Assembly: GCA_026414385.1 (NCBI GenBank) | Contig: JAOAJC010000004.1 | Coordinates: 1-51,978, forward strand | Direction of reading: 5' to 3' | DNA from: Candidatus Pacearchaeota archaeon | GTDB lineage: Archaea; Nanobdellota; Nanobdellia; Pacearchaeales; GW2011-AR1 | Length of the DNA stretch: 51,978 nt | In this document: positions 2,942 to 40,009 of the stretch, piece by piece | Layout: each line of letters opens with the position of its first letter | Position numbering within the stretch: position 1 is the first letter of the stretch | The notes under the pieces: model-generated | The model's database searches: none | Told to the model about the DNA's origin: nothing | Seen by the model: only the letters and a program-made list of their open reading frames with translations | Translations under genes and position numbers: made by a program

Positions 2942-2942
2942 T

Positions 2943-23448: not shown

Positions 23449-24069
23449 ATGCCACTAACAAAAGAACAAATAGAAAATTTAAAAGAACAATTAAAATCAC
23501 AAGTACAACACTTGCCGGAAGAACAAAAAAAAGAAGCAATTAAACAAATAGAATCTCTCTCACCCGAATCTCTTGAATTATTACTAAAACAATCACAAGA
23601 AGCAGAAAAATCAAAATCCCCTGATATTTTTAGAAAGATTATAAACAAAGAAATTCCTGCTTTTATTATAGATGAAAACAAATTTGCTCTTGCGGTTCTT
23701 GACATAAACCCGGTTTCTCTCGGACATACAATAATCATCCCAAAAATTCAAGCAAAAACTTCAATGGATTTACCTAATCAAGCTCTCTCAATGGCAAAAA
23801 AAATCTCAAAAAGAATTATCTCAAAACTTAAAGCAAAATCTACGGAAATACAAACAGAATTTAAATTTAATGAAATAATAATCAACATAATCCCAATATA
23901 CGAACAAAAGCTCTCTCTATCATCACCGAGAACAAAAGCATCAGAAGAAGAATTAAACAACATTGCAAAAAAACTCCGTCCTCAAAAAAAGAAGCAAAAA
24001 GAAATTAAGAAAGAAGAGCCAAAAACCCAACCAACCGAGATAATAAAACTTCCCAAAAAAATACCATAA
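23449..24069 (+). CDS. HIT-fold protein lacking the catalytic histidine motif
   Basis: Residues 60-140 match the HIT domain: FRKIINKEIPAFIIDENKFA, then AVLDINPVSLGHTIIIPK. The expected HxHxHxx motif is replaced by NEIIINIIPIYEQ, with no histidine, and the zinc cysteines seen in many HIT proteins are absent. A nucleotide hydrolase or transferase reaction is therefore unlikely. The N-terminal 55 residues form a helical leader also seen in DPANN HIT proteins, and the tail is lysine/proline-rich. Its last 65 bases overlap the 3' end of the prepilin peptidase gene on the other strand. It follows aEF1-beta by 5 bases. It may be a nucleotide-binding or scaffold protein. Confidence 0.75.
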   Translation: MPLTKEQIENLKEQLKSQVQHLPEEQKKEAIKQIESLSPESLELLLKQSQEAEKSKSPDIFRKIINKEIPAFIIDENKFALAVLDINPVSLGHTIIIPKIQAKTSMDLPNQALSMAKKISKRIISKLKAKSTEIQTEFKFNEIIINIIPIYEQKLSLSSPRTKASEEELNNIAKKLRPQKKKQKEIKKEEPKTQPTEIIKLPKKIP

Positions 24070-24871
24070 CAATTAATGCAACCAAAAAAGCAGGTGAAAA
24101 CGGAATTCCCTTTTTTATCCAAACCGATTTTCCAGCTTTCTTTAATTTTATAATATCATCATAACTCAAACCACTCGCGCTTTTTTTTATCAAACATTTC
24201 TTTCCCAATTTAATGTCACTAACAAGCCAATCTCCCTCTGTCAATCCATCGGGACTAACTAATCTTATCATACACTTTTCCACAGAAAACAAATAAAAAT
24301 AAAGCAAAGGAAACAAAACAATAAATCCAAAAACAATCATCCCAACATCAAATCCAAATCCTTGCCATCCAATAAAACCAAACATCAAGCCAACAAAAAA
24401 ACAAATTCCAAACAAAGTTTTCTTTCCAACCCAATGCCCTTTAAATTCTTTCTTAAATCTTTTCCAATTCCTTCCAACAATAAAAAGACTATATCCTAAA
24501 CTATAAAAAGCCCCTACTAAAAAAAGCAAAAACAAAAACCCGATTCCAACAAAAAAAACATTATAAAAGCTCTCAATGGGTAAAATAACCCCAAACCCCA
24601 TTAACAACTTTGCATCACCTCCCCCAAATACCCCGCTATAATATAATAAATTAGCAAAAATGAAAAACAACGCAAATCCCATTAACCCATAGATTAAAAA
24701 CATTTTATCTTTAAAAGACAAAGCATAAAATACCCTATAGATAAAAGCAAAACAAATAAGAGAATAATTCAACCAATTAGCAATCTCCTCTTTTTTTAAA
24801 TCTTGCACAACAGCAAAAATACTATACAACAACGCCAACCCAAACAAAAAATAATATTTCTCTACCACCAT
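24005..24871 (-). CDS. Prepilin peptidase, A24 (PibD/TadV-like) family
   Basis: A membrane aspartic peptidase that removes class III signal peptides from prepilins. From ATG 24871 (288 residues), the two catalytic aspartates are D24 in VQDLKKEEIANW and D86 in VFGGGDAKLLMG. At least six hydrophobic segments are present. After them comes a soluble domain (GDWLVSDIKLG, GLSYDDIIKLKK) and a last membrane segment with GIPFSPAFL, as in archaeal A24 peptidases. A TTTAATAA box about 30 bases upstream supports ATG 24871 over a TTG at 24886. Its nine nearby substrates lie upstream on the same strand. It overlaps the HIT gene tail to tail by 65 bases. Confidence 0.9.
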   Translation of the reverse strand: MVVEKYYFLFGLALLYSIFAVVQDLKKEEIANWLNYSLICFAFIYRVFYALSFKDKMFLIYGLMGFALFFIFANLLYYSGVFGGGDAKLLMGFGVILPIESFYNVFFVGIGFLFLLFLVGAFYSLGYSLFIVGRNWKRFKKEFKGHWVGKKTLFGICFFVGLMFGFIGWQGFGFDVGMIVFGFIVLFPLLYFYLFSVEKCMIRLVSPDGLTEGDWLVSDIKLGKKCLIKKSASGLSYDDIIKLKKAGKSVWIKKGIPFSPAFLVALIVMVFFWEVLLSRLVGFLALLS

Positions 24872-24956
24872 ACATAAAACTCTCAATTACTATTTATTAA
24901 ACTTCGCAAATTAATCAAATCAATAAGTTTTTAACTTCTCTTTAATTTTAATCAAC

Positions 24957-25097
24957 ATGGTAAATGATTATATATTTCCTGAAAAAAGGAAATCAAAATG
25001 TGACAAAAAAGCAAAAGCAAGATATATAAAATATAAAAAAGGTGGAAAATTTAGAAGTGCAAACATAAACGCTTTTTCTAACAAAACTGATAATTGA
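24957..25097 (+). CDS. Small basic protein, 46 aa
   Basis: ATG 24957 opens a 46-codon frame ending in TGA. The product is very basic (KRKSKCDKKAKARYIKYKKG in the middle) with one cysteine and no hydrophobic segment. It could bind nucleic acid, but no family is recognised. An A/T-rich TTTTTAAC stretch lies about 25-32 bases upstream. It lies between the prepilin peptidase and the first pilin-like gene, on the other strand. It is a real gene only if conserved in relatives. Confidence 0.45.
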   Translation: MVNDYIFPEKRKSKCDKKAKARYIKYKKGGKFRSANINAFSNKTDN

Positions 25098-25204
25098 ATG
25101 CAAAATTATCTTACATTTTTAATGCTCTTCAAAATTCAAAAAAACAACACCGCTATATAATCCCACTCTAAACTACTCACTACCCTCATCACATAAAGTT
25201 AGCC

Positions 25205-25612
25205 TTAAGAAAGACAAAGTTCTCCATTTACATAAATCTTACTAATATCTTTCTCCTTTGATTTTTTTAAATATTCACAATATTTATCTCGCGTGTAATC
25301 CCCACTTAATTTAGTGCAATCAATTTGCGCCCCGCTTGGTTTAACTCTTTTGTCCTCACAATTCATGTATTCTGTTCCACTATCAGTTTTTATTTTCCTA
25401 AATTGGCAATAATCTATATTAAAATCTTGTTCAGCATACATAATACAAGCCTTTTGCAATGCCTGCACATCACCCGGCGCAAATTTTAATTTTCCAAATA
25501 TAGTATCCCATCCGATACTAAATCCTAAAACTAATATCACCAACACAATAACACCTAACACAATAAGAATAAGCGTAGTAACACTCATTTCTTGCCCCTT
25601 TTTGTTTATCAT
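25205..25612 (-). CDS. Class III signal-peptide pilin-like protein, 135 aa
   Basis: The leader INKKGQEMS is followed by a hydrophobic helix (VTTLILIVLGVIVLVILVLG), the layout of an archaeal prepilin cut after KKG. The mature part has six cysteines (CIMYAEQDFNIDYC, NCEDK, DC, KYC, LCLS), so several disulphides are likely outside the cell. This high cysteine density and its own promoter (TTTATAAA 23-30 bases before ATG 25612) make it a good candidate for a main or structural subunit. It is the pilin-like gene nearest to the prepilin peptidase. Confidence 0.8.
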   Translation of the reverse strand: MINKKGQEMSVTTLILIVLGVIVLVILVLGFSIGWDTIFGKLKFAPGDVQALQKACIMYAEQDFNIDYCQFRKIKTDSGTEYMNCEDKRVKPSGAQIDCTKLSGDYTRDKYCEYLKKSKEKDISKIYVNGELCLS

Positions 25613-25802
25613 ATCCAAATCAAATACCTCTTATTTATAAATCTTTTCTCTCACGCGCCCACACATTTCTAAGCCATTTGCCTTACTGATAATTCCAAAA
25701 TTTTATAATTTTTATTTAATTGTAAATTCTCCTATTCCCCAATACATCTATCAAATTACCACAAATTCATGCAAATATTTTATAAACAAAAACTTCCCCA
25801 CT

Positions 25803-26279
25803 TTATTTATTACGAATATCACAATTCTCTAAAAAATTTCCCTTTTCATCAAACTCCATGCAAATGTCAAAATGCCTTGTCACACGATTATAATCAAATT
25901 CTTCTTCAACAAACAAATCCTTTATTTCAAGAACATACTTTCCGTTGTTCTTTTCAAATTTAAATTCTCCATTTCTTACTCTAGCAAAAAAGTTCCCGAA
26001 TTCTACTACATTTATCTCACTCGCCTTTGAGATAGCAATAAAATCTTCCCTTATATTACCATTTCTTTTAATGCTCTCTTCTGCAAAAAATTTTGCCTTT
26101 GATTTTACATAACCTTCGCCCAAATCTATTGTTCTCATAATTTGATCGGTTTTTTCACTATTAACTCTTAAAGAACCATTAAAACTCAGAAAAACAAAAA
26201 GCGCACTTATCACTAAAGCCAAGGCTACAACTATAATTATTACGCTCGGCACATCTCCTTTCTTATTCATTTTATTCAT
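25803..26279 (-). CDS. Class III signal-peptide pilin-like protein, about 158 aa
   Basis: The leader NKMNKKGDVPS is followed by a hydrophobic helix (VIIIVVALALVISALFVFLS). The mature domain is mixed alpha/beta with a late cysteine pair (DICMEFDEKGNFLENCDI). ATG 26279 overlaps the 3' end of the preceding gene by 8 bases; ATG 26270 would work as well. It is the last gene of a chain of overlapping frames, so one polycistronic mRNA is likely. No named pilin family is recognised. Confidence 0.78.
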   Translation of the reverse strand: MNKMNKKGDVPSVIIIVVALALVISALFVFLSFNGSLRVNSEKTDQIMRTIDLGEGYVKSKAKFFAEESIKRNGNIREDFIAISKASEINVVEFGNFFARVRNGEFKFEKNNGKYVLEIKDLFVEEEFDYNRVTRHFDICMEFDEKGNFLENCDIRNK

Positions 26280-26874
26280 TTTTACAATATTCAAAAGGAC
26301 ACTCCCCATAATATGATTGAATTTTTTTTACTCCAAAAAACCCACCCTTAACTATCGTAAAATTATAATTATTAATTAAATTCATATGTTTAGAAGTAAA
26401 AAATAAATTATTAAGCAGTTTTTCTCTTTCCCCTATTCTACAAATCCCATAAGAACCGCTCATAAGATTTTCTTCATCAACCACAAGGAAATATATACAA
26501 TTACTTGCCATTTTATTTTTCTCAAAATCTTCTCTTGTTATCAAAACCAATTTTTGCATCTCTTCTCTTCTTGGTTCTTTGAATTTTTCTATCAAGAAAC
26601 CAAAATATGCAGAATCTTTATTTATTAATGCATCAAAAAAACTAATATTTTTCAAATCCCCATTCTCATCACCAATCTCAATGTTCCTTAACAAAATCTC
26701 CATATTAGAATAAGAAAAAAGCGTTGTTCTTTTACTTTCAATAGAGGGAGATTTCAAACCAGAAATCGCAAAACTCATTGCAAGATAAATTACGATTATG
26801 ACAAATATAAAAATCATTACAGGCAAACTAGTCAAAAACTTTCCCAACTGTGCTTTTTTATTTATTTTCCTCAT
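26272..26874 (-). CDS. Class III signal-peptide pilin-like protein, 200 aa
   Basis: The leader MRKINKKAQLGK is followed by a hydrophobic helix (LPVMIFIFVIIVIYLAMSFA). The mature domain of about 165 residues includes a pair of cysteines near the end (YGECPFEYCKNE). KKAQ in place of KKGQ is an accepted variation of the class III cleavage site. The ATG overlaps the stop of the preceding gene (ATGA, 4 bases), and its own end overlaps the next. It is probably a minor pilin or pseudopilin. Confidence 0.78.
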   Translation of the reverse strand: MRKINKKAQLGKFLTSLPVMIFIFVIIVIYLAMSFAISGLKSPSIESKRTTLFSYSNMEILLRNIEIGDENGDLKNISFFDALINKDSAYFGFLIEKFKEPRREEMQKLVLITREDFEKNKMASNCIYFLVVDEENLMSGSYGICRIGEREKLLNNLFFTSKHMNLINNYNFTIVKGGFFGVKKIQSYYGECPFEYCKNE

Positions 26875-27320
26875 TTTTCAACCTCAATACGCTGATTAGA
26901 TGCAACAATTATCTTATATTTTCCAAAAACCTTAACAAAACATTTTGGATATTCCTCAGATTTTTCTATTTCCTTTCCCTCACACAATGTAACATCACCA
27001 TAACTATACAAAACATCATTACCATCCAAAACCCTTATAGCATTTGTCTTCTCAAAAACCTCTTTTTTTATACCACAAGCTGAATAAAAATTGTTTTTTA
27101 TTTGTTCAATATTGTCACTCTCAGCAATACATCTCTCAACCTTATAACTAATTAAATTAGCTTCTCTTTCTCTAAAATCATATTCTTTTCCAAAAAAAAT
27201 GTAAATCCCCCCAACAATTCCCAACCCAATTATAATTAACAAAAAAATAAAATAAAACAACATCATCTGTTTTCCCAACTGCCCTTTCTTATTTTTTTTA
27301 TTTTTTATTATCTCACGCAT
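26871..27320 (-). CDS. Class III signal-peptide pilin-like protein, 149 aa
   Basis: The leader NKKNKKGQLGKQM precedes a hydrophobic helix (FYFIFLLIIIGLGIVGGIYI). Three cysteine-containing segments follow (ERCIAESD, YSACGIKK, VTLCEGKE, and KCFVKV). The start overlaps the upstream gene by 8 bases and its stop overlaps the downstream ATG by 4, so the genes are translationally coupled. Size and layout fit a minor pilin. Confidence 0.78.
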   Translation of the reverse strand: MREIIKNKKNKKGQLGKQMMLFYFIFLLIIIGLGIVGGIYIFFGKEYDFREREANLISYKVERCIAESDNIEQIKNNFYSACGIKKEVFEKTNAIRVLDGNDVLYSYGDVTLCEGKEIEKSEEYPKCFVKVFGKYKIIVASNQRIEVEK

Positions 27321-27738
27321 TTTCGCTCCCTGTTATGTTAAATTTAAGCAAGTTTCTTGGTATGCTATAATCTACCTCAATTCTCTGCCCAACAACACGA
27401 ACATCATTGAAATAACTATAACAACTTCTTCCACGCGGGCTTAATTTCACGCAAATTTTATTATTTAGATTATCAAACCAAAAAATCTCGCTCGGTTTTA
27501 AAAACCCATTTGCCTTTGCTGTTTTCATTAGTTTATGCACATCCAAAACAACTACATCCCCTGGCTTTGCCAAATCAACAATTTTTGCAATTTCTTTAGC
27601 ATAATAATCTTCCCAAAAAACAGCACTGTTTGATTGTTTCCACACCACCCCAAACATACCTAAAATAAAAATCATCAATATTATCAAATAAACAACATTA
27701 TCCATTAAAACATCACCAACAGATGCTCTTTTATTCAT
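27313..27738 (-). CDS. Class III signal-peptide pilin-like protein, 141 aa
   Basis: The leader MNKRASVGDVLMDN is followed by a hydrophobic helix (VVYLIILMIFILGMFGVVW). RASVGD is a less typical cleavage region; processing by the nearby peptidase is inferred. The mature part is beta-rich with two cysteines (KICVKLSPRGRSCYSY). It lies one base downstream of the preceding gene and overlaps the next by 8 bases. Confidence 0.75.
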   Translation of the reverse strand: MNKRASVGDVLMDNVVYLIILMIFILGMFGVVWKQSNSAVFWEDYYAKEIAKIVDLAKPGDVVVLDVHKLMKTAKANGFLKPSEIFWFDNLNNKICVKLSPRGRSCYSYFNDVRVVGQRIEVDYSIPRNLLKFNITGSENA

Positions 27739-27739
27739 T

Positions 27740-28456
27740 TTATTTCTCCTCCTCTAATCTAAATCCAAATATCCCAAAAGGATATAATTTCGCATCAACA
27801 TATATCACATGCGTCTGAAATATTTTCAAATACGACTTTCCATCCCTCTTTTCTTTTTTTAGTTCAATCTCATTAATATCGTCCGGAATTAAAACAAAAT
27901 TAACCTCAAGTTTAGGATTTTGAATAGGGGAAGTAAACCATCGGCTATAAAAACCAACCCCCAGTTTACTTTCTAAATTTATTATACTACCAACACTTAC
28001 TTCATCAACATCAACTTTCCTACAAAACCCGTTTTTTTGACAAGCATCCCTAAAAACCCTTACTTTATCACCCACTTCTTGTTTAAAAAACCCCAAACTT
28101 CCAATATTAAATCTAAAAGCCCTTGCGGGATCATCCACCTTACAAATACAAACACAACTATCAAAATAACACTTGTCAGGCCTACCAATCTCATCTTTAC
28201 TCCATCCAACAATAAACCAACTCAATGGAGTTTTCATCTTAAATCCTTGTATTAAAAACTTCCCGCTCTGCCCCTCTTGCAATAAACTAACTCTTCCAAC
28301 AACATCATCAATCATTTTTTTTGCATTTTCACTCTCCTGTCCAATCGTTATCTGATAAATTTTATACGCCCCATAAACAATAATCAAAATTGCAATTACA
28401 GCAATTATCACTTCAGGAACATTTTCTCTTAAATCTCCTTTTTTCTTAATTTCCAT
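27740..28456 (-). CDS. Class III signal-peptide pilin-like protein, 238 aa
   Basis: The leader EIKKKGDLREN precedes a hydrophobic helix (VIIAVIAILIIVYGAYKIY). The ectodomain is large, with a cysteine cluster (CYFDSCVCICK near residue 97, and CQKNGFC near residue 139) and a beta-rich C-terminal half. The cysteine cluster suggests a disulphide-knotted tip domain. It is one base from each neighbour, so it is part of one operon. Confidence 0.78.
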   Translation of the reverse strand: MEIKKKGDLRENVPEVIIAVIAILIIVYGAYKIYQITIGQESENAKKMIDDVVGRVSLLQEGQSGKFLIQGFKMKTPLSWFIVGWSKDEIGRPDKCYFDSCVCICKVDDPARAFRFNIGSLGFFKQEVGDKVRVFRDACQKNGFCRKVDVDEVSVGSIINLESKLGVGFYSRWFTSPIQNPKLEVNFVLIPDDINEIELKKEKRDGKSYLKIFQTHVIYVDAKLYPFGIFGFRLEEEK

Positions 28457-28457
28457 A

Positions 28458-29492
28458 TTAAGGACTTCCTTCCAAATAAGTGCATAATCGTTTTATATTC
28501 GTATATGAATAAGGCACTACCTGCACCAACGAACATCCTTTCGACTCATCCTTCCCAATAAGGCTTGTTTCCAAACTTCCGCAATATCCTGCAGCAATCT
28601 CTTGGCTCTGCCAATTATTATAAGCTGCCATTCCAACCCCTGTTGCAGCAGCAACAGCCACAATTTTAATTCCTGTTGCAGTTAGCACCAATCTTTTTGC
28701 AAGGTTCCCTATACCAGGAGTAATAAACGCAGTTCCAGCAACTAAAAAAGCATCGCTTCCCAAATTTGAAATAGCCTCTCCAAACCCGATTGTTTTTATT
28801 TGTGAAAAAACAACAGAAACTTGTTTTTCATCCTGAATATCTAAATTAATGCCTTCTGCTTTTGCTTTATCCACTTCATAAATAGCACTATCAACCTTTG
28901 GATAACTCCTTACACCTTTGTCAGTCATCTTCTCCAAATAAGTTAAATCACTTCCAGGAATCTTTGTTGTTCTCATATACTCTCTTATATTTATTTTATC
29001 AATAATGTTTTTACTCACACTCTTATCTAATGCCAATCGCGAACAAATAACACAAGTAGGTTTTGCTATATCCATTGCCCTTGATTGAGCATAACTACCA
29101 AACAAATCTAACTTTCCTTCACCCATCATTTTCCAACAAGAAAAAAGTTCCTCTGTTGTAGTTTTCTCAATTAATCTCACTGCCTCGTTCTCATCTTTAG
29201 GTAATTGCACTATTTCTGGTTTTTCAACAGCAAAAGAATCCTCGCATTTCCCACTACCAGAAGTTATGCATATTTTCTTTGTTTTACATTTTAAAGGCAT
29301 ATAAGATTTTGCCGCCTCAGTTAATTGACTACCAGTCGCCCTTGCCAAAACACTCAAATGACATGTCTCTTCCTCGCTATAACCTTTCCAATCCCACAAT
29401 GCCAAAAATCCCAAAACAACAATAAAACTCAATACAGCAACAATAATTAATGCTATCTCTCTCGAAGTTAAATCCCCTCTCTTTGATATCAT
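28458..29492 (-). CDS. Class III signal-peptide protein with extra C-terminal hydrophobic region, 344 aa
   Basis: The leader MISKRGDLTSRE is followed by a hydrophobic helix (IALIIVAVLSFIVVLGFLAL). Four cysteines occur early (ETCHLS, LKCKTKKICITSGSGKCE) and a CVIC motif near residue 147. Unlike the others it has a second hydrophobic, alanine/glycine-rich stretch near residues 250-300 (FLVAGTAFITPGIGN, then IKIVAVAAATGVGMAA) that may insert in the membrane. It heads the chain of six close-packed pilin-like genes. Its role is unknown; a membrane anchor for the filament is one option. Confidence 0.75.
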   Translation of the reverse strand: MISKRGDLTSREIALIIVAVLSFIVVLGFLALWDWKGYSEEETCHLSVLARATGSQLTEAAKSYMPLKCKTKKICITSGSGKCEDSFAVEKPEIVQLPKDENEAVRLIEKTTTEELFSCWKMMGEGKLDLFGSYAQSRAMDIAKPTCVICSRLALDKSVSKNIIDKINIREYMRTTKIPGSDLTYLEKMTDKGVRSYPKVDSAIYEVDKAKAEGINLDIQDEKQVSVVFSQIKTIGFGEAISNLGSDAFLVAGTAFITPGIGNLAKRLVLTATGIKIVAVAAATGVGMAAYNNWQSQEIAAGYCGSLETSLIGKDESKGCSLVQVVPYSYTNIKRLCTYLEGSP

Positions 29493-29646
29493 AATCTAAC
29501 CTATTCTTTTATATTATTAAACTTAACTTATCACAAAAACAAAATACTCAATTTAAAATATCAAACTTAATCAAAAACAAACCAATCATTATAATCCAAT
29601 TTATACTTACTAATTTACACAAAATAGTTCTTAATTAAAACCCTTA

Positions 29647-29760
29647 TCATCCAACTATTTTCTTAATCAAAAAATAAGCAGCAGCAATCCCAATTGCCAA
29701 AAATACTGCCCATTGTAAAATATTCATCAGCGCCTCATAAGTCAATCCCTTTTTGTTCAT
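29647..29760 (-). CDS. Miniature class III signal-peptide protein, 37 aa
   Basis: ATG 29760 opens a 37-codon frame: leader MNKKGLTYEALM, hydrophobic helix (WAVFLAIGIAAAYFLI), basic end KKIVG. It has the pilin-type N-terminus but almost no ectodomain. Its ATG lies one base after the stop of the 261-residue pilin-like gene, so it is probably coupled to it. Such a peptide could fill gaps in a filament core or regulate assembly; this is inference. Confidence 0.65.
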   Translation of the reverse strand: MNKKGLTYEALMNILQWAVFLAIGIAAAYFLIKKIVG

Positions 29761-29761
29761 T

Positions 29762-30547
29762 TTAACAATCCTTATTGTCTCTAGGTTTTTTTAAATCAAT
29801 AATTAAATCCCCAACACTTCCCTTATTAATGCAGAATTTTTTCAACTCTTTCTGATTATTTAAATTTAAAAACTCTAATGTTAATGGTTTCTTTAAAGAA
29901 TAATCTCTCACCACATCAACAAATTCACTAAGGCAAATAGCTGCAGGCCCGCCAACCACAATAGGTTCGCAAACCAATGTTTTAAATATAATGCCTTTTA
30001 CCTCGCAAAACTCTATACTGTTTGTAACTAAATCATACCTATAATGCGGCCCACCACCCCCATAAATATCATATTCTCGTTTAGATTTACCAACCTCTTG
30101 AAGCCCAAACCTTACTATCCCATTTTCTGCATAATATGCATAACACTCAAAATTCTTCCCCTCATAAGACATTATTTGACTTCTTGTTGTAAGAAAAAAA
30201 TCATTCCAATAATGTTTTATAAACTTGTTCTTAATTTCAGAAACTTTTATTTTAAACTCTCCAACCTCTACTTCACTACCATCATCTAACTTTATCCACT
30301 CAAAACCATCATAATAAAAAACATTTTGTGTCCTTATCTCAAATTTTACTTTCAACTCATCACTCTCTGTTTTAATCGTTGTTTGATTAAAATCAGGCAA
30401 AAACCTAAATAAAGAAGTTATCTCAGGCCAATAATTAACAACACCTAAAATAACAATAACCAAAACAAATGCTGCAATAATCGCAACAATTATGCCTGTC
30501 CTTGGTTCAGCCTCATCACCTTTTTTATTCATAAAATTATTTCTCAT
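29762..30547 (-). CDS. Class III signal-peptide pilin-like protein, 261 aa
   Basis: The leader MNKKGDEAEPRT (from the second methionine) precedes a hydrophobic helix (IIVAIIAAFVLVIVILGVV). The ectodomain is beta-rich with late cysteines (FCEVKG, LVCEPIVVGGPAAICL, KFCINK, KDC). The ATG at 30547 overlaps the stop of the preceding 53-residue gene (ATGA), typical of translational coupling. A start at ATG 30532 would also keep the signal intact. Confidence 0.78.
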   Translation of the reverse strand: MRNNFMNKKGDEAEPRTGIIVAIIAAFVLVIVILGVVNYWPEITSLFRFLPDFNQTTIKTESDELKVKFEIRTQNVFYYDGFEWIKLDDGSEVEVGEFKIKVSEIKNKFIKHYWNDFFLTTRSQIMSYEGKNFECYAYYAENGIVRFGLQEVGKSKREYDIYGGGGPHYRYDLVTNSIEFCEVKGIIFKTLVCEPIVVGGPAAICLSEFVDVVRDYSLKKPLTLEFLNLNNQKELKKFCINKGSVGDLIIDLKKPRDNKDC

Positions 30548-30705
30548 TTCCCAAACCTCAATATATTTTTTAAATACTCAATAGCAGAAATTCCCTTCCA
30601 CCTCAATAACAAAATTAATGCAACAAGCAAAATAAGAATAGCAACAACAATAATCCAAGGAATTAACGTTGACCATATCTGCCCTTTCCTCTTTTTTCCA
30701 ACCAT
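30544..30705 (-). CDS. Small class III signal-like membrane protein, 53 aa
   Basis: The basic leader MVGKKRKGQIWS resembles a class III signal (KGQ) and is followed by a hydrophobic helix (LIPWIIVVAILILLVALILL). A short basic tail (RWKGISAIEYLKNILRFGK) completes the protein. It is the first gene of the pilin-like operon, with a TTTAATAA box 22-29 bases upstream, and overlaps the 261-residue gene by 4 bases. With no ectodomain, it is either a minimal pilin or a membrane assembly factor. Confidence 0.65.
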   Translation of the reverse strand: MVGKKRKGQIWSTLIPWIIVVAILILLVALILLLRWKGISAIEYLKNILRFGK

Positions 30706-30726
30706 AAATACACCAATTAATCCATG

Positions 30727-30734
30727 TTATTAAA
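30727..30734 (-). promoter_or_regulatory. TATA box of the pilin-like operon
   Basis: TTTAATAA on the minus strand, 22-29 bases before ATG 30705. The spacer to the divergent platform gene is about 250 bases. Confidence 0.55.
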
Positions 30735-30952
30735 CATTTCCAATAACTAATAACAATTTTCAAGCCCTAAAATCCAAAAAACACCTCTTTTAATTACTTT
30801 TTAATTTCTCCCAATCAAACCCCCACATAACAAACTTTTCAATCACTCACAAAACATGTTATTAACTCAAAATAATGCTAACCTTCCCCTTATAAACATT
30901 TGTTCAGCAAATCTTTATAATCTATATTCAGTTAATATTACTAATAAAAAAG

Positions 30953-33079
30953 ATGGATAACACTAAACAAATTCTTGAAAAATACAGCAAAAAGTTTGAA
31001 TCAGAACTCTCTTCTTTTTCCCCAAAAGAATCCTCAGAATACTCTCGTTTTAAAGAAGAAATGGTTCATAAACTCTCCTCTTATGAAAGATGGGCAAAAT
31101 CACTCGGCAACCTTATAACAATAAAAGTTGCTGAAAAAGACAGAATAAGGATTCAAAAATATCTTGATATCGCTCATTTAGATGTAACTCCTTCGCAAGC
31201 ACTTACTCTTTCGGCTCTATCAATGTTCTCTGTCTTCTTTGCCACAGTTCTAATTTCAATTGCACTCTATCTTATCTATCCACAAGCCTCAAACATTTTA
31301 CTCTTTGCTTTTCTCGGCACAATTGCCTCACTATTTATTTTTTATTATACTTATAGCATGCCTCAAAGATTGGCAAATGCCTGGCGCCTAAAAGCCTCTT
31401 CTCAAATGGTTCCAGCTGTTCTTTATGTTGTTGTCTACATGAAACACACTTCTAATTTAGAAAAAGCAATAGAATTCGCCTCACAACACTTAGAAGGCCC
31501 TCTTGCCTTAGATTTCAAAAAAATTTTCTATGATGTTGAAATAGGAAAATTCTCCACAATAAAAGATTCTTTGGAATCTTATTTAGAATCTTGGCGCGAC
31601 TATGCTCCGGAATTCATAGAATCCTTCCATCTTATTGAATCTTCTCTTTTTGAACCATCAGAATCAAGAAGAATTGAAATCTTAGAAAAATCACTTCAAG
31701 TTATTCTTGATGGAGTTTATGAAAAAATGCTAAAATACTCAAGAGAAATCCGCTCGCCTTTAACAAATGTCTATATGCTTGGTATTATTCTTCCAACACT
31801 CGCTCTCGCTCTTCTCCCGCTCGCCTCAACCCTTCTCGGTGGCATAATAAGATTTCCACATATTTTTGTAATTTTTAATATAATTATCCCATTCTTTGTA
31901 TATTACCTAACTTCTGAAATTTTGTTAAAGCGCCCAGGTGGTTATGGTGAAACCTCTGTTCTTGAACTAAATCCAGAATACGAAAAATTTATCTCAAAAA
32001 AACCTTTGTTTATAGCATTTCTTATCGTATTTCCTCTAATTATTATTGGAATCTCCCCATATATCTCCCATTTCATTTTTAACAAAGATTTCACACCCCT
32101 CTCTTTTAACATAGAACTCGCTCAAGATATGAAATTTTTTGATTTCAAGAAAATTAATAATTCAACAATAGGCCCATTTGGACCAATAGCGGCAATTCTC
32201 TCTCTATTTATCCCATTGTCCATCGCTTTATTCTTCTCAATTGCGTACACCCAAAAAACAAAACCACTTATAAAAACAAGAGAAGACACAAAAATCCTTG
32301 AAGAAGAATTTACAAACTCTTTGTTTCAATTAGGCAATCGTTTAGGTGACGGGATTCCAGCAGAAATAGCGTTTGCAAAAGTCGCAGAATCAACAAAAGG
32401 ACAAAAAACAGAAGGTTTCTTTGCTCTGGTTAATCAAAACATTCAACAACTCGGCATGTCTGTAGAAAGAGCGATTTTTGATAGTCGGAGAGGTGCAATA
32501 ATCTATTACCCTTCTGCCCTTATCTCTACCTCAATGCGAATTCTAATTGAAGCAGTTAAAAAAGGTTTGCAAGTAGCAGCCCGTTCATTAATGTCTATTT
32601 CTGATTATATTAAAAACATCCAAAAAATAAATCAAAGACTAAGAGATTTGCTTGCGGAAGTTATTTCTGATATGAAATCAAACATGACTTTCCTTGCCCC
32701 ATTATTAGCAGGCATTGTAGTTGGTTTATCCACAATGATAACCATTATTTTGAACAAGCTCCAAACAATGCAAGCAGCTGCAGCATCTGGCGAAGCAATA
32801 GCAGGATTTGGCAATATTGCAGATATAACAAGATTATTTGATGTGACCCAAATGATACCGCCTTATCATTTGCAAATAGTCATAGGGATATATCTAATAG
32901 AAATAATTTTTATCCTAACCTCTGCATTAGTAACAGTAGATTCGGGCAAAGACCCTCTAAAAGAAAAAGCAATTTTAGCCTCCAATCTAAAAACAGGTAT
33001 TTTGCTTTACACGATAGTTTCCTTTATCTCAATTCTTCTCTTAACACTTCTCGCAGCAATCGCGCTAAGTGGAATGTAA
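30953..33079 (+). CDS. TadC/GspF-like platform protein with two T2SSF domains, 708 aa
   Basis: The inner-membrane platform of type IV filament systems. An N-terminal charged helix (residues 1-60) leads to membrane segments near 80-130, a first cytoplasmic T2SSF domain (about 140-265, with AVLYVVVYMKHTSNLEKAIEFA), and paired membrane segments near 275-330. A central pair follows near 350-420. A second T2SSF domain (about 440-580, with FTNSLFQLGNRLGDGIPAEIAF) and final membrane helices complete it. The double domain is the archaeal arrangement. It is divergent from the pilin-like operon and convergent with the ATPase gene, which suggests one system. Confidence 0.88.
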   Translation: MDNTKQILEKYSKKFESELSSFSPKESSEYSRFKEEMVHKLSSYERWAKSLGNLITIKVAEKDRIRIQKYLDIAHLDVTPSQALTLSALSMFSVFFATVLISIALYLIYPQASNILLFAFLGTIASLFIFYYTYSMPQRLANAWRLKASSQMVPAVLYVVVYMKHTSNLEKAIEFASQHLEGPLALDFKKIFYDVEIGKFSTIKDSLESYLESWRDYAPEFIESFHLIESSLFEPSESRRIEILEKSLQVILDGVYEKMLKYSREIRSPLTNVYMLGIILPTLALALLPLASTLLGGIIRFPHIFVIFNIIIPFFVYYLTSEILLKRPGGYGETSVLELNPEYEKFISKKPLFIAFLIVFPLIIIGISPYISHFIFNKDFTPLSFNIELAQDMKFFDFKKINNSTIGPFGPIAAILSLFIPLSIALFFSIAYTQKTKPLIKTREDTKILEEEFTNSLFQLGNRLGDGIPAEIAFAKVAESTKGQKTEGFFALVNQNIQQLGMSVERAIFDSRRGAIIYYPSALISTSMRILIEAVKKGLQVAARSLMSISDYIKNIQKINQRLRDLLAEVISDMKSNMTFLAPLLAGIVVGLSTMITIILNKLQTMQAAAASGEAIAGFGNIADITRLFDVTQMIPPYHLQIVIGIYLIEIIFILTSALVTVDSGKDPLKEKAILASNLKTGILLYTIVSFISILLLTLLAAIALSGM

Positions 33080-33324
33080 ATATAGAATTAATAACAAAGA
33101 GAGAATACTTATAACTCAAGTTTAGAAAATATAACTTAATTACATCTTTTATCATATTTTTAAAATTAGATTATAGTGCAAAAATAGAAAGAAAAATTTG
33201 AATATTCAAAAATAAACTTATTTAAAATAAATCTTGCATCAATAATTCCATTAATACTTCAATAAATCATTCAAACAACTCGCCAACCAATTATTAATTC
33301 TTTTTTATCACTATGTTCATTAAA

Positions 33325-35598
33325 CTAATATTTTTTCACATGCTCAATCGCCCATTTTTTCCATTCAGGAAAAACCCTCTCAGATAACGGCAATCCAATT
33401 TCCTTTCTTACTTCATCACTTATTCTATGAAAAGCATTATTGCTCAAAGAATTAAATGGCGCTTCCAACAACTCCGGATTTTTCATCCTCCTTGCAATTT
33501 CAACAATCTCCTGTTTTATTTTCCCCCTTAACAAAATGTTATCCCAAACAGCATCCCAATTTCCAGCCCACCCCTTAACATTTCCAGCAATATTCTTAAT
33601 TATTTCACTCTCACCATTAATTAATTCTGATGTAGGCTCTAATTCATCTCTCTCAACATTATACCTTAACAAATCAACAAACCCCACTTCTCTTGCAGGA
33701 TCTTCTTTCCAATGTTTTCTTACCTCTGTTAAACTCAACACTCTCTTCATAGAATGCAATCCGTCAGGAGTTTTTACAGGATTAGCAATTAAAATTATAT
33801 CAGTTGCTTTAAATGATGTAGCAGGAACTTGTAAATCATTAACAACTCTATCAAAAACACCATATGGAGAATCCCCATGAATTGTTCCTGCAACCACATT
33901 AGCCAATGCCCCGACTCTCATTGCCTCATAAAGCGCTTTTGCCTCACTGCTCCTAACCTCGCCAACAATTAAAGCACTATCACCCAATCTTAAACTTGTC
34001 CTTATTCCTTCTGATGCTTCAACCTCTGTTGTCCCGCTCACAAGCGCACTCCTCACTTTCATTCTCAAAATATCATAATTTAATTTTCTTAACGCATCAA
34101 ATGGCAACTCCAAAGTATCCTCCACCACAATTATCCTATATTTTGGCATTATTTCCAACATCAAACTCCCTAATAAAGAGGTCTTTCCCGAACTTCTTGT
34201 CCCAGCAACTAACAATGTTCTCGAACCATCAATCAAAAAGCTTAACAACCCTGCTGTAAATGAATTTATCATTTTTTTCTCAATAAACAAAGGCAAAGTC
34301 CAAGGTGACTCTCTATGTCTTCTCAAAGCATAAGCAAGTCCATTCGGCGATAATGGTTGTTGTATCGCAGCAACTCTCGCTCTTATCTTTCCAAAAACCA
34401 AATCACTATCTAAAATCGGATTTGCCTCGTCTAATGGCCTTCCCGACTGCAATCTCAATTTTGCAGCCCAAGAATCAGCATCTTCATAACTCGGAATTAT
34501 GTTTGTTATGCACTCGTCATAATTTTCATGTCTAACATAAATCGGATTTAATGCAATAGGTGCATTTATTACAATATCTTGCAGTTTCTTATCCAACAAC
34601 AAAATTTCTATTAATCCAAATCCAATAGTATATCTTACAAGTATTCTAGCCAATTTTGTCAACTCGCTGTGATTTAATTTTATTCCTTTATCTCTTGACA
34701 ACTCTATTAACAAATCCCTGCCAACATTAAAAAAAACCATTCTTGTCTTTTCAGGATCAGTAAATTCTTCTGCTTTCGGCCTATGTTCTATTAAAACATT
34801 TCTTGCCAAATTAATTAACATATGATGTTCTTCACTTAAAGTATATTCTGGAGGCATTAAATGGTAAAAATATTTTGTCTCATCCGCTCTCTTTAATATT
34901 GTCACTGTCGCACTCTCTTCCCCCGAACTTATCTCATACTGATCAATCAATGCCGCATCTTTCGGGAATTGAGCCATTAACCTTGTAAAGGTAAAATTAG
35001 GTAATATGTCCGGCCTGAAAATAGTTTTATAAATTTCCCTCTCACCTAATTTGTAATTGTCAAGTTCGCCCAATACAGATTTTATTAATTTTGTATTTTC
35101 CAATAGTTCATGAAACTTCTCAAAAAATCTTAAATAATTCATTCCTCTACTTTTATCAAAAATTTTTCCACTCTCTATCTCACTCCTCAATAACTTTGCT
35201 CTTCTTCCCAACTCAACATAACATGCAACAGGATCTCTTTTCAACAATTCTAAAAAATAACTTATCTCGCTATGCACTTCTGGCACATTACCAAACAAAC
35301 TCATCTTTTCTATACTAAATGCATTTTCCTGCTTAATCAAAAAATTATACAACGACGCAATCTCAACTAATAAAGAAACTTGCTCAGCAGGATAATTATA
35401 ATTTCTCTGTTGCACAAATATAACTCTTGATATAGTAGGATTCTCTGATAATGTCTCAATAGTCCTAGCCATTACCATTCCGTTATCAGCAATGCTCGGC
35501 ACAAATGGGGCATTTAAATAATTTACATAAAGAACATCTTCCCCTGGCTTCCTCTCTATCTCAATTGCGTATAATGCTGCACCCTCTTTGAACATCAT
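33325..35598 (-). CDS. Type II/IV secretion system ATPase (GspE/TadA-like), 757 aa
   Basis: The motor ATPase for pilus assembly. A long N-terminal part (about residues 1-300) precedes the family core. Near residues 385-410 is the N2 segment RLQSGRPLDEANPILDSDLV. Walker A VAGTRSSGKTSLLGSL lies near residue 470, with VVEDTLELPFDALR after it, and Walker B ALIVGEVRSSEAKALYEAM near residue 545. A His box, GTIHGDSPYGVFDRV, follows. The length is above the usual 500-550 because of the extra N-terminus. An AGAGG lies shortly before two adjacent ATGs, so either may be used. Confidence 0.92.
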   Translation of the reverse strand: MMFKEGAALYAIEIERKPGEDVLYVNYLNAPFVPSIADNGMVMARTIETLSENPTISRVIFVQQRNYNYPAEQVSLLVEIASLYNFLIKQENAFSIEKMSLFGNVPEVHSEISYFLELLKRDPVACYVELGRRAKLLRSEIESGKIFDKSRGMNYLRFFEKFHELLENTKLIKSVLGELDNYKLGEREIYKTIFRPDILPNFTFTRLMAQFPKDAALIDQYEISSGEESATVTILKRADETKYFYHLMPPEYTLSEEHHMLINLARNVLIEHRPKAEEFTDPEKTRMVFFNVGRDLLIELSRDKGIKLNHSELTKLARILVRYTIGFGLIEILLLDKKLQDIVINAPIALNPIYVRHENYDECITNIIPSYEDADSWAAKLRLQSGRPLDEANPILDSDLVFGKIRARVAAIQQPLSPNGLAYALRRHRESPWTLPLFIEKKMINSFTAGLLSFLIDGSRTLLVAGTRSSGKTSLLGSLMLEIMPKYRIIVVEDTLELPFDALRKLNYDILRMKVRSALVSGTTEVEASEGIRTSLRLGDSALIVGEVRSSEAKALYEAMRVGALANVVAGTIHGDSPYGVFDRVVNDLQVPATSFKATDIILIANPVKTPDGLHSMKRVLSLTEVRKHWKEDPAREVGFVDLLRYNVERDELEPTSELINGESEIIKNIAGNVKGWAGNWDAVWDNILLRGKIKQEIVEIARRMKNPELLEAPFNSLSNNAFHRISDEVRKEIGLPLSERVFPEWKKWAIEHVKKY

Positions 35599-35791: not shown

Positions 35792-36103
35792 ATGGCTGAA
35801 GATAATCAATCACAATATCAACAAAACCCCCAACCCCAAGAGATAATCTCGTTCCTTCACGACTTAGAAGAAAAACAAAATTTATTGAAAGATAGAGTAA
35901 TTCTTCTTGGAAAAACATTAGTTGAAGAAAGAGACAAAACTTTTCACGAAATTCAAGAACTTAAATCCTCGCTGATTAAGCTAACAGAAGAATCAAAAAG
36001 AATGCGTGAATTACTTGAAAGGATTACAGAACAACTAACAAATGTTGCAAGAAAAGAAGAACTATCAATTATCCAAAGACAAATCGACATGTTAAGAGAA
36101 TAA
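35792..36103 (+). CDS. Coiled-coil protein, 103 aa
   Basis: A glutamine-rich start (NQSQYQQNPQPQEI) leads into one long amphipathic helix with heptad repeats (DLEEKQNLLKDRVILLGKTL, then ELKSSLIKLTEESKRMRELL) that fills residues 18-100. No membrane segment. It lies 193 bases from the secretion ATPase on the other strand and precedes another coiled-coil gene by 49 bases. By position it may be a cytoplasmic partner of the filament motor, in the way FlaC/D/E serve the archaellum, but no FlaCE motif is seen. Confidence 0.7.
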   Translation: MAEDNQSQYQQNPQPQEIISFLHDLEEKQNLLKDRVILLGKTLVEERDKTFHEIQELKSSLIKLTEESKRMRELLERITEQLTNVARKEELSIIQRQIDMLRE

Positions 36104-36152: not shown

Positions 36153-36806
36153 ATGGCAATCTTAACAGACATAGAACAAATGCGAAAAGAAGGCAAATCA
36201 GACGAAGAAATTATCTCAATTCTTCAATCAAGAGGAATCTCTCCGCGTGAAATTTCAGAAGCAATAGTTCAATCAAAAGTAAAAGAAGCTGTTGTAGGAA
36301 ATATTCCCGAAACACTCGCCCCAACACCCGCAACCCCACTACCACAACAAGAAGCATATGTTCCTCAAACACAATATGAAACCTCGCAACAACCAATAGA
36401 ACAATCCCCACAAGAACAATATCCGCCACAACCACAATATGCTCCTCAAGAACAATACCCTCAACAATATTCCCCAGAAACATACCAACAATATGCCCCG
36501 CAACCACAATTGCCAACAGACATAATTTCCGAAATAGCCGAACAAATTATAACAGAAAAACTTTCTCCAATTAAAACACAATTAGAAAAATCAATTGACT
36601 TTAAAACAACAGCAGAATCAAAGATAGAATACTTAGATGAAAGATTAAAAAGAATAGAAAAAATAATAGACAGATTACAACTATCAGTTTTGCAAAAAGT
36701 AGGAGATTATCTAACCAATGTAGAAGATATAAAAAAAGAACTAATTGAAATGCAAAAAACGTTTAAATCGTTATCAACAGAAAAACCTAAAAAACAACTC
36801 GTTTAA
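36153..36806 (+). CDS. Protein with helical head, Pro/Gln/Tyr-rich linker and coiled coil, 217 aa
   Basis: Residues 1-48 form a compact helical head (DIEQMRKEGKSDEEIISILQ, then ISPREISEAIVQSKVKEA), like a SHOCT or UBA-type motif. Residues 55-125 are low complexity with repeated PQ, QY and EQYP units. Residues 128-200 are a predicted coiled coil (KIEYLDERLKRIEKIIDRLQ). It follows the other coiled-coil gene and is near the secretion ATPase, so a scaffold role at the filament base is possible. Its stop overlaps that of the convergent gene by 4 bases. Confidence 0.72.
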   Translation: MAILTDIEQMRKEGKSDEEIISILQSRGISPREISEAIVQSKVKEAVVGNIPETLAPTPATPLPQQEAYVPQTQYETSQQPIEQSPQEQYPPQPQYAPQEQYPQQYSPETYQQYAPQPQLPTDIISEIAEQIITEKLSPIKTQLEKSIDFKTTAESKIEYLDERLKRIEKIIDRLQLSVLQKVGDYLTNVEDIKKELIEMQKTFKSLSTEKPKKQLV

Positions 36807-37144: not shown

Positions 37145-37612
37145 TTATTTGCTCTTCACCAAAACCCAACTCACGACAGCACTAATAATAATCAAAAATA
37201 AAGCCCCATAAATTCTCGGACTAAATAACCAATTTTTAAATTTAACAAAATTGCTAATATCTCCAAAACTCATATAAGCAGAAACCAAAAACAAAACCAA
37301 CAATCCAACCACAAAAATAACGCCAATGCCTTTCTCCAAAAAAGCAACCTTGCCAGAAAATCCAATCAAAGCAAGAATAAAAATTAATAAAACAACAAAC
37401 ACTGCAAACCATGGGGTCATCTTAATCACAAATTCTCTCGCACCACTTGTAGTTATAAAAACACTTGCAATAACAAATGAGATAAACAATTGAACCCACT
37501 TATTTTCTCCAAGTATTTTTGTTTTAGCAAAAATCGCAAATACGCTTATAAAAATCAATAGAAAACTAAATATAGGTAATAAATCATTGAAAGCACTTAA
37601 TTCAATTGCCAT
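37145..37612 (-). CDS. Multi-pass membrane protein, paralogue 1 of 3, 155 aa
   Basis: Four to five hydrophobic segments. The N-terminal pattern LLPIFSFLLIFISVFAIFAK followed by KILGENKWVQLFISFVIAS matches the two genes upstream (LLPFLLIF-AIVFG, then LGKNK-IIAL), so the three are diverged paralogues. The function is not known. ATG 37612 is used; a TTG at 37621 is in frame. It is the last of three minus-strand genes near the filament genes, each separated by about 90 bases, and probably located in the same membrane. Confidence 0.78.
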   Translation of the reverse strand: MAIELSAFNDLLPIFSFLLIFISVFAIFAKTKILGENKWVQLFISFVIASVFITTSGAREFVIKMTPWFAVFVVLLIFILALIGFSGKVAFLEKGIGVIFVVGLLVLFLVSAYMSFGDISNFVKFKNWLFSPRIYGALFLIIISAVVSWVLVKSK

Positions 37613-37712
37613 TTTTCCCAATTAAAAACACAAAAACTATCTTTATAAATCTAACTCATTCAACTCTAACGCATCTTAATATAAAAAATGTATGCTCAAA
37701 AAACCAGCTATT

Positions 37713-38243
37713 TTAAGAAGTTCTGAATAATTTTATTTCTTTAACGCTATTTTCTGGCGTCCTTGCCATTACAACAGCAATAATCACCCCAATAAGTAAA
37801 ACAGCCCCGATAACTAAAGCAACTAAGTCTTCACTTGTTACACCAAAAGAACCCCATTTCCCCCATAACCCACTCTCTTGAAATGCTCCTGATAAAGCAA
37901 CTATCCAAATTATCGCTCCAATCCCCATAAAAACATAAATTGCCCATCTATCATCTTTTTGAATAAACAATCCAGTTAATATTGCGAGAGCTATAATTAC
38001 TGCCAATCCAACACCCAACCGAGGAAACAACTCTGTAAAAAAAACAGAAACAAAAGGTAATCTTAACGCCAATGCACTAACAACCAAAGCAATAATAACA
38101 TGAACCCCCTTATTTTTTCCCAACAATTCTGTAGAAGTTAATATCCCAAAAACAATAGCAAAAATCAACAAGAATGGCAAAACAAAATCAAATACCCCCC
38201 ACTTATCCCATGTCTGTAAAAGCATCCCAATATCTATTGCCAT
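37713..38243 (-). CDS. Multi-pass membrane protein, paralogue 2 of 3, 176 aa
   Basis: The shared core is VFDFVLPFLLIFAIVFGILT, then LLGKNKGVHVIIALVVSALA, followed by two or three more membrane segments (VGLAVIIALAILTGLFI, WAIYVFMGIGAIIWIVA and LVALVIGAVLLIGVIIAVVM). It ends with a short basic tail. The glycine/asparagine turn LGKNK between helices is conserved with its two neighbours. I know no family name; similar tandem sets occur near pilus genes of DPANN archaea, as far as I can recall. Confidence 0.78.
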   Translation of the reverse strand: MAIDIGMLLQTWDKWGVFDFVLPFLLIFAIVFGILTSTELLGKNKGVHVIIALVVSALALRLPFVSVFFTELFPRLGVGLAVIIALAILTGLFIQKDDRWAIYVFMGIGAIIWIVALSGAFQESGLWGKWGSFGVTSEDLVALVIGAVLLIGVIIAVVMARTPENSVKEIKLFRTS

Positions 38244-38339
38244 TACTCACAAAACAACTTCTAATTTAAATATGTTTCGTTATCAACAAAAACTATTCCT
38301 TTAATTAAAAAACTCAAAAATAAAATTATAGACTATAAA

Positions 38340-38834
38340 TTAAGATTTCTTTCCCTCGCCGAAAGGATACAATACAACAACAATCGCAACAATAACAATA
38401 ATAATCAAAATAATATTACTCATCCAACCCTCAAGCGCCCCTGCAAAAAAATCCTTGATATAACCCCAACTATTTGTAAAATAAATCAAAGCAGCAACAA
38501 CAACTATTGCAGCGATTACTCCAACAGCATTTTTCACACTAACAGGCATATCAAAAGCACCTGCCTTAAATACCATCCCCCAAAGAAGCATAAACACTAA
38601 CAAAACAACCAAACCAACTGCCAAAACAGGCATCAAGTTATTTATTAAATCAGTCGCATAACCAACAGCAACAACCATCAAACCAATTGCTAAAGCAATA
38701 ATCGCATTTGTTTGTTTTTTGTCCTTTCCAAAAACCTCACTTTTTTCCAAAACCGCAAACACCAACGCAAAAACAAGAACAAATGGCAACAAAACATCTC
38801 TCACAACAGGATTTGATAATATAGTCACAGCCAT
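38340..38834 (-). CDS. Multi-pass membrane protein, paralogue 3 of 3, 164 aa
   Basis: The core VLLPFVLVFALVFAVLEKSE, then FGKDKKQTNAIIALAIGLMV, aligns by eye with the two downstream paralogues. Three further hydrophobic segments follow (MPVLAVGLVVLLVFMLLWG, VIAAIVVVAALIYF and NIILIIIVIVAIVVVLYPFG). The C-terminus is short and basic (EGKKS). It is the first of the three tandem genes and the closest to the PRC-barrel gene. An assembly, channel or anchoring role is possible, but nothing shows which. Confidence 0.78.
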   Translation of the reverse strand: MAVTILSNPVVRDVLLPFVLVFALVFAVLEKSEVFGKDKKQTNAIIALAIGLMVVAVGYATDLINNLMPVLAVGLVVLLVFMLLWGMVFKAGAFDMPVSVKNAVGVIAAIVVVAALIYFTNSWGYIKDFFAGALEGWMSNIILIIIVIVAIVVVLYPFGEGKKS

Positions 38835-38952
38835 ACACTCTCTTACTTCTTTTTATATTTAAATCTTCTCCTTATTATAAAATAAATCACCCTCATTAAT
38901 TAATCTCTCAAAAATACCACCATCTCAAAAACCAATCAAACAAAATTTATTA

Positions 38953-39249
38953 TTAAGAAAGCTCTTCACTTGGAGCAGGAACACTTCCAATATCTATGTT
39001 CTCTTCTTTAGTCGGCAAAGATGTTTTTGTAACAATAAAAACATCACCAACAGCTTTTACAAACTGATGAGGAATAATAACCCCCCTCGCACCACCCAAT
39101 GCTCCAATTAAACCACTCCCCAACCTAATTTTCCAGCCATCAACTTTGTTATCGGCTAAATTTACCTCTTCAACTTGCCCAAAATAATCCCCTTCAGAAG
39201 TATAAACATGCTTCCCCAACACCTCACTTAATTTTTTTATTCTTAACAT
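38953..39249 (-). CDS. PRC-barrel domain protein, 98 aa
   Basis: Residues 1-80 form a PRC barrel: LRIKKLSEVLGKHVYTSEGD, then FGQVEEVNLADNKVDGWKI, with the late VIIPHQFVKAVGDVFIVTK. PRC-barrel proteins in archaea act in RNA metabolism and, in haloarchaea and Crenarchaeota, in cell division (CdvA, CdpA/CdpB). Which applies here is not visible. ATG 39249 is used because a TATA-like TATAAATA lies about 30 bases upstream. The C-terminal tail is acidic. Confidence 0.85.
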   Translation of the reverse strand: MLRIKKLSEVLGKHVYTSEGDYFGQVEEVNLADNKVDGWKIRLGSGLIGALGGARGVIIPHQFVKAVGDVFIVTKTSLPTKEENIDIGSVPAPSEELS

Positions 39250-39361
39250 AAAAAACACTACAAAAAACCACTATTTATATTTTATGCTTCTCAAAAATAT
39301 TAAAAAAGCAATACACTATAAAGGATATATTTATTAAATCCAACTTCCAAAAAAAAGAAAT

Positions 39362-40009
39362 ATGAAATTGCAAGAAATTTATAATGTTCTCGCAGCAATA
39401 ATAATCCTATTTGCGATAATATCTTTTCCATCAATCTTAAAATCAAATTTAAATTTCCTACCACAAGCATTTATTTTTTCAACAATAACAATTATATTAA
39501 TTGTAGCAGCAAGAAAATTTGTTGCGCATTCTCTCGACGCAGATGCTGAACACGAAATCTGGAGCATCTATCAATGGGGCATAAAACCACACCAACATTT
39601 TTCAAAACCAATAAAATTTGGAATAATTCTCCCACTTCTTCTCTCAATTATCTCTTTCGGAATTATTAAATTTCCTGTAATTCTCACTTTTGAAGCCCGC
39701 GCACTTAAAAGGCGTGCTGCCAAAAGATTTGGATTTTATTCCTTTACAGAAATTACCGAATTCCATAACGCAGTTATAGCCGGATCAGGAATAATAGCCG
39801 CACTCGTCATCTCTCTCATTACCTATTTCTTACCAGCAAACTTTGAATACCTCGCAAAAATCTCAGCATATTACGCACTAGTTAATCTAATCCCAATATC
39901 AAAATTAGATGGTGCTCAAATTTTCTACGGCTCAAGAACACTCTGGCTCACTCTCTTCCTTATCACAATAGTTTTCACAATCTATGCCCTTTTCCCATTT
40001 CTATCATAA
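39362..40009 (+). CDS. Site-2-protease-like (M50) membrane protein without HExxH
   Basis: A 215-residue protein with about six hydrophobic segments. The C-terminal LVNLIPISKLDGAQIFYG keeps the NxxPxxxLDG motif of S2P metalloproteases. After the second helix, KFVAHSLDADAEHEIWSI matches the stretch that follows HExxH in archaeal S2P-like proteins, but the five residues in the HExxH place are IVAAR. The first two zinc ligands and the catalytic glutamate are thus missing, so it is probably a non-proteolytic homologue. It is divergent from the PRC-barrel gene. Confidence 0.75.
   Translation: MKLQEIYNVLAAIIILFAIISFPSILKSNLNFLPQAFIFSTITIILIVAARKFVAHSLDADAEHEIWSIYQWGIKPHQHFSKPIKFGIILPLLLSIISFGIIKFPVILTFEARALKRRAAKRFGFYSFTEITEFHNAVIAGSGIIAALVISLITYFLPANFEYLAKISAYYALVNLIPISKLDGAQIFYGSRTLWLTLFLITIVFTIYALFPFLS

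Follow-up and report, generated by a model that had tools for sequence, protein, structure and literature searches.

Which kind of filament is encoded by a cluster of pilin-like genes in a Pacearchaeota genome, and what would it serve for? The cluster lies at positions 24005-35598 of contig JAOAJC010000004.1 of Candidatus Pacearchaeota archaeon (GCA_026414385.1). This whole stretch of 51,978 nucleotides, hereafter the window, is contig 30 of a metagenome-assembled genome (MAG) of 565 kb in 35 contigs, about 90% complete. Most named relatives of its 757-aa ATPase come from Ca. Pacearchaeota, Nanoarchaeota or archaeal MAGs without assignment, which identifies the organism as a DPANN archaeon of Pacearchaeota type; such archaea are tiny and probably depend on hosts. 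The initial annotation had described a type IV filament locus with one prepilin peptidase, nine proteins with class III-like leaders, a double-domain platform protein and a secretion ATPase, and every part it named was found. We consider that the locus probably encodes a heteromeric type IV filament for cell contact with hosts or prey, with exchangeable heads that would open bacterial walls in armed lineages, because relatives graft peptidoglycan hydrolases onto its subunits.

On the evidence of its genes, the locus is well supported as a widely conserved archaeal type IV filament. It combines a VirB11/PilB-type ATPase, a platform membrane protein, a prepilin peptidase and class III prepilins, the set that characterizes this archaeal superfamily. 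The peptidase (24005..24871, minus strand) belongs to the A24 family (PF01478, E=3.9e-13), has a weak similarity to FlaK and is the final operon gene in relatives. The secretion/pilus assembly ATPase (33325..35598, minus strand; PF00437, E=2e-13) has an intact Walker A motif (GTRSSGKTS). Its gene is convergent with that of the TadC/FlaJ-like platform protein (708 aa; 30953..33079, plus strand), which diverges from the first subunit gene, p1. The platform protein is not matched by Pfam T2SSF; the proposed double-domain architecture would follow from its length and from a profile match to a haloarchaeal protein, and is in any case commonplace, two T2SSF domains being the norm for archaeal pilus platforms (PMC6668835).

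The relatives of the ATPase in the PDB are GspE2, CpaF and FlaI. A phylogeny had been suggested as a check. In a tree of 36 rows, the ATPases of the window type group together, with a Haloterrigena plasmid ATPase as neighbour (100/100) on a long branch, the tree program warning of long branches. They are separate from FlaI (six rows, 99/98), from CpaF and from GspE2, which groups with the second pilus ATPase of the organism. The haloarchaeal ATPase gene adjoins that of a “secretion system protein” matching the 708-aa platform over 493 columns (hhalign 99.7%), and a plasmid search returned a single close archaeal type of homologue. The second ATPase belongs to another type IV pilus locus of the same genome (contig 11, L052:5910-12551), which encodes three class III proteins, a 507-aa GspE2/PilB-type ATPase, a split platform (430+282 aa) and two further class III proteins, near large secreted proteins. 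Across relatives, an ATPase was matched in 55 of the 55 genomes searched, being in some of them the second ATPase only. In two genomes (G019:C59 and G033:C51), the match is split near residues 475-507 within frames of 1308 and 1830 aa, a pattern as expected for putative inteins in the ATPase domain.

A divergent archaellum, serving motility, would have this engine family in common, and two coiled-coil proteins encoded beside the ATPase, cc1 (35792..36103, plus strand; 36/40 loci) and cc2 (36153..36806, plus strand, with a Pro/Gln-rich linker; 35/40 loci), recall FlaC/D/E. This explanation is largely refuted and we regard it as scarcely tenable: the ATPase is outside the FlaI clade, neither FlaI nor archaellin (PF01917) reached the cut-off in the about 90% complete genome, and FlaC/D/E are absent from the Pfam families listed for cc1 and cc2, whose assignment to them is therefore unsupported. 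There is also no FlaH-like neighbour among the gene calls of the window, FlaH, FlaF and FlaG not having been searched individually. The initial distinction from an archaellum was thus supported. A Tad/Epd-like pilus, for which two separate single-domain platform genes and an ATPase of the CpaF clade would be expected, was rejected as well, with a single 708-aa platform gene and an ATPase apart from CpaF.

Ten consecutive minus-strand genes, rather than nine, open with a leader of class III type, in which basic residues precede a G or A and a hydrophobic stretch follows it. The signature occurs in 10/10 operon genes versus 3 of the 55 other called genes of the window, two of these three being seemingly spurious, and this clustering is not due to chance. 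Two of the ten are tiny and nearly bare helices, p1 (30544..30705, 53 aa, RKG/Q) and p3 (29647..29760, 37 aa), the latter conserved beside p4. The others are p2 (29762..30547, 261 aa, KKG/D), with a variable ectodomain; p4 (28458..29492, 344 aa, KRG/D), with eight near-invariant cysteines and a hydrophobic helical hairpin; p5 (27740..28456, 238 aa, KKG/D), with a CxCxC motif; p6 (27313..27738, 141 aa, KRA/S); p7 (26871..27320, 149 aa, KKG/Q); p8 (26272..26874, 200 aa, KKA/Q); p9 (25803..26279, about 158 aa, KKG/D); and p10 (25205..25612, 135 aa, KKG/Q), with a Cys-rich head. The window also encodes, at 2-4787, a 614-aa protein that has a class III-type leader, next to a secreted protein truncated at the contig end and at least 980 aa long; no Pfam family exceeded the cut-off for either.

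Most of these genes do overlap (p1/p2, p6/p7, p7/p8, p8/p9) or touch (p2/p3, p4/p5, p5/p6), as initially stated; p4, however, is preceded by a gap of 154 bp, p10 by one of about 190 bp, and the peptidase gene likewise by a gap. Among the ten, only p10, the candidate major pilin, has a TATA-like box of its own (TTTATAAAT, at -29). The ectodomains are mutually different, as had been noticed: similarity is restricted to the N-terminal helix, and an ectodomain-only comparison gave a single borderline pair (p7/p9, E about 0.04). The description as cysteine-rich is partly valid: the operon has 2.3% Cys vs. 1.0% elsewhere, p10, p4, p7, p5 and p2 being rich in it, and p1 and p3 contain no Cys.

No window subunit matched Pfam or NCBIfam above curated cut-offs, nor did p2 match PHROGs. 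The p2 protein falls in a family restricted to its subclade and marked by YYDGxxW and WRD motifs, and its predicted model, of low confidence (pLDDT 69), matched no PDB or viral fold at E<=0.001. AlphaFold modelled p4 well (pLDDT 82), with an alpha/beta head besides the N-terminal helix and with a helical hairpin within the hydrophobic stretch; the model matched no PDB fold at the same threshold. A second transmembrane-like segment is present in 63 of the 98 p4 homologues and could be membrane-inserting or membrane-anchored.

We then compared gene order in relatives, first in 40 loci and subsequently in 80 operons in which p4 is internal. This check, also proposed initially, revealed what is invisible from the window alone: conserved orthologous subunits, a near-fixed order and hydrolase grafts. 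The near-constant order is platform, p1, slot 2 (p2), p5, p3, p4, p6, p7, p8, p9, p10 and peptidase, with p3-p4-p5 replacing p5-p3-p4 in the closest subclade of the window, and the median intergenic gap in about 80 operons is 1 bp. Genes of relatives were called with our own caller, which makes start-codon errors, and the mean of 6.7 class III genes counted per operon is for this reason a lower bound. Slots p1, p2 and p10 were assigned by position, iterative profiles being merged through the common N-terminal helix. The p10 gene is the conserved last class III gene ahead of the peptidase, and some operons contain additional copies of it. The platform protein was detected in 189 of 200 genomes of the same taxonomic order, with 52-67% identity to that of the window in the aligned set, and p4 in 153 of 194 genomes sampled across the phylum. 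In other families of the class, outside this order, p4 is frequently present in two neighbouring copies, suggestive of a p4 heterodimer in those families. Given the conserved order and the recurrence in relatives, the subunits are about ten old, separately inherited families rather than the product of recent diversification or local expansion. Apart from the grafted enzymes, these families have no Pfam match.

The grafted enzymes bear on the use of the filament. The survey, with a Pfam threshold of E<1e-3, covered 64 long slot-2 proteins and, beyond these, 75 subunits, namely p5 and the long versions of p6-p9, together with p5-p10 of the window itself. Thirteen operon subunits from 11 relatives carry a recognised enzyme domain. 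Twelve of them are peptidoglycan hydrolases, from 10 genomes, five families (SLT, M23, glucosaminidase, amidase, phage-type lysozyme) and four different subunits (p2, p5, p6, p7); the eleventh relative has only a GH39 glycosidase. Slot-2 proteins vary in length between about 54 aa, a mere stub, and more than 600 aa, and 4 of the 64 long ones carry a domain (SLT transglycosylase, M23 peptidase, phage-type lysozyme and GH39-like glycosidase). Nine of the 75 further subunits do so (five SLT, two amidase_2 and two glucosaminidase): p5 in G044, G049, G036 and G048 (two SLT, two glucosaminidase), p6 in G163 and G132 (two SLT), and p7 in G025, G163 and G118 (two amidases and one SLT, the latter exactly at the Pfam cut-off). 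Two weaker p5 cases (G041, G037) were excluded from the count of 13. Moreover, two operons combine complementary hydrolases, M23 with glucosaminidase in G036 and SLT with amidase in G163.

In p7, amidase and SLT domains are inserted at two different sites, and the conserved N- and C-terminal parts are preserved around them; the enzyme-bearing p7 proteins are therefore decorated subunits and not misjoined genes. SLT domains are found in 71 of 180 genomes of the order, many of them in open frames that reach or exceed about 2,000 residues and resemble the previously published family fam00969. Six SLT matches fall inside the pilus operon by coordinates (G002, G132, G163, G044, G049 and G047, this last gene being uninspected), versus about 1.1 expected. 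For an assumed operon length of 8 kb, a genome size of 700 kb and about 95 SLT loci, the Poisson probability of this excess is about 0.001. For amidase_2, 2 of 17 matches order-wide are within the approximately 8-kb operon. In addition, three SLT frames of about 460 aa (G098:C26:28721, G099:C21:16112 and G119:C5:2930) lie near the operon but not in it, at a distance of up to about 10 kb, and are encoded on the other strand. In the G154 operon, the C-terminal domains of p6 (L121:3817-4857) and p9 (L121:6049-7395) are alike by eye, have no Pfam match and are possibly GATase-like, a shared graft other than a hydrolase.

Archaea are not known to have peptidoglycan (murein), so the target of these hydrolases should be another cell, and a bacterial one. 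The minor subunits might then be exchangeable heads, several lineages being armed with one or two hydrolases as a contact weapon or feeding device against bacteria; we hold this part more tentatively, at slightly less than an even chance. If so, the p2 and p4 heads of the window would be uncharacterised counterparts.

Several observations weigh against the contact filament that we favour. Only about 1/9 of the operons carry a recognised hydrolase. In the window, no subunit has a recognisable enzyme domain in Pfam, and its genome, about 90% complete, has no SLT, amidase_2 or M23 match, glucosaminidase and phage lysozyme not having been searched genome-wide. The hydrophobic hairpin would be odd for a filament subunit, and p4 might instead be a membrane component. 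Nearly all genomes compared are MAGs, and the filament, its tip and any activity are here predictions from genes. The window operon, as opposed to those of the 10 relatives with hydrolase modules, is thus an unarmed member or one with unrecognised modules. For its organism, the locus is best read as a filament that makes contact with cells and whose heads can be exchanged, and wall-breaching is what we infer from the relatives.

The scarcity of hydrolases, in the window's operon as in most others, is what an ordinary adhesive pilus would lead us to expect, one attached to a surface or an archaeal host, with the domains of relatives as occasional passengers or binding modules. The nearest ATPase/platform pair is haloarchaeal, and all DPANN in cultivation are reported to be ectosymbionts of archaea (PMC11291902). 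However, 12 of 13 domains being murein hydrolases, from five families on four subunits with complementary pairs in two operons, fits passengers poorly, and the catalytic motifs seem intact by eye (ES...GLMQ in SLT; HxxxD and HxH in M23). We therefore consider this alternative rather unlikely, albeit the most serious one.

Under the contact filament that we prefer, the prepilins p1-p10 would enter the membrane and lose their leaders to the peptidase, and the ATPase and the platform protein would extrude them. The bulk subunit would most likely be p10, while p1 and p3 may be helix-only or adapter subunits. Distinct heads, often disulfide-stabilised, would be displayed by p2, p4, p5, p6 and p7, probably as a tip or priming complex. 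These head modules would be exchangeable, as the grafts onto p2, p5, p6 or p7 suggest, and in armed lineages the bacterial wall would be opened at the point of contact. The many minor-type subunits, with no clear abundant major pilin, could also be those of a pseudopilus similar to that of a type II secretion system, a short piston exporting or presenting enzymes; the engine is common to such systems and type IV pili, and hydrolases are carried on subunits. Such a machine is improbable: the enzymes are built into subunits and are not separate cargo, the outer-membrane secretin step is generally unneeded in archaea, and p10 has a promoter-like box, as a major pilin might have. A filament for DNA or nutrient uptake, with wall hydrolases aiding access to bacterial contents, would suit the scavenging lifestyle of Pacearchaeota (PMC8204110). 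We judge it very unlikely, and a competence filament is disfavoured, as no ComEC-family channel (PF03772) was matched in the about 90% complete genome and no competence genes were seen at the locus. Of the uses initially proposed, host contact is supported and uptake is not favoured.

Beyond the coiled-coil genes, a block at 37145-40009 is kept beside them and the ATPase gene across the order, by association only. It comprises three tandem paralogous membrane proteins (37145-38834, minus strand; about four transmembrane segments by eye), likewise inseparable by iterative profiles, a PRC-barrel protein (38953-39258, minus strand; PF05239 in relatives) and an M50-like membrane protein (39362-40009, plus strand; PF02163 in relatives).

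Dissimilar pilins in DPANN are not new; the novelty is the ten-subunit set and, in relatives, the grafted wall hydrolases. Subclade 4F of archaeal type IV pili (Makarova et al. 2016, PMC4858521) is among the closest known systems, and the locus may belong to it. Here, a DPANN ATPase/platform pair, kin to a haloarchaeal pair, lies beside ten class III genes, and no known archaeal pilin family is recognised among the subunits. That census listed some nanoarchaeal 4F ATPases without cognate pilins, which this locus may supply. The DPANN dark-matter pilus islands (Makarova et al. 2019, PMC6393860) likewise combine a secretion ATPase and TadC with unrecognisable proteins that bear signal peptides and were interpreted as diverse pilins; the portion of that paper describing them reports neither an ordered orthologous subunit set nor enzyme modules. 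Interchangeable minor-pilin tips can serve predation, as in the Kil (Tad) pilus of Myxococcus xanthus (PMC12075869), although this one is bacterial, Tad-type, associated with a needleless type III secretion system and of another ATPase clade, and the word “peptidoglycan” is absent from the paper. The modular pilins PilB and PilC of Streptococcus sanguinis (PMC8179133) also graft a functional module on a pilin scaffold, but these are adhesive lectin or VWA modules, not enzymes, in a bacterial type IVa pilus. The murein transglycosylase family fam00969 of Pacearchaeota and Woesearchaeota (PMC8204110) shares lineages, enzyme class and the inference of bacterial contact, but consists of very large stand-alone extracellular proteins and not of pilus-operon subunits. 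Predation-like Woesearchaeota and bacteria-killing hydrolases of archaea have been published before; in the open-access literature, we found no paper joining DPANN or archaeal pilins with peptidoglycan hydrolases.

It is an open question, with few molecular handles, whether bacteria serve DPANN archaea as hosts or prey. An order-wide operon with murein hydrolases on pilin-like subunits in several lineages provides direct targets for that question and, if our reading is true, would give archaea a weapon or feeding device for use on contact with bacteria.

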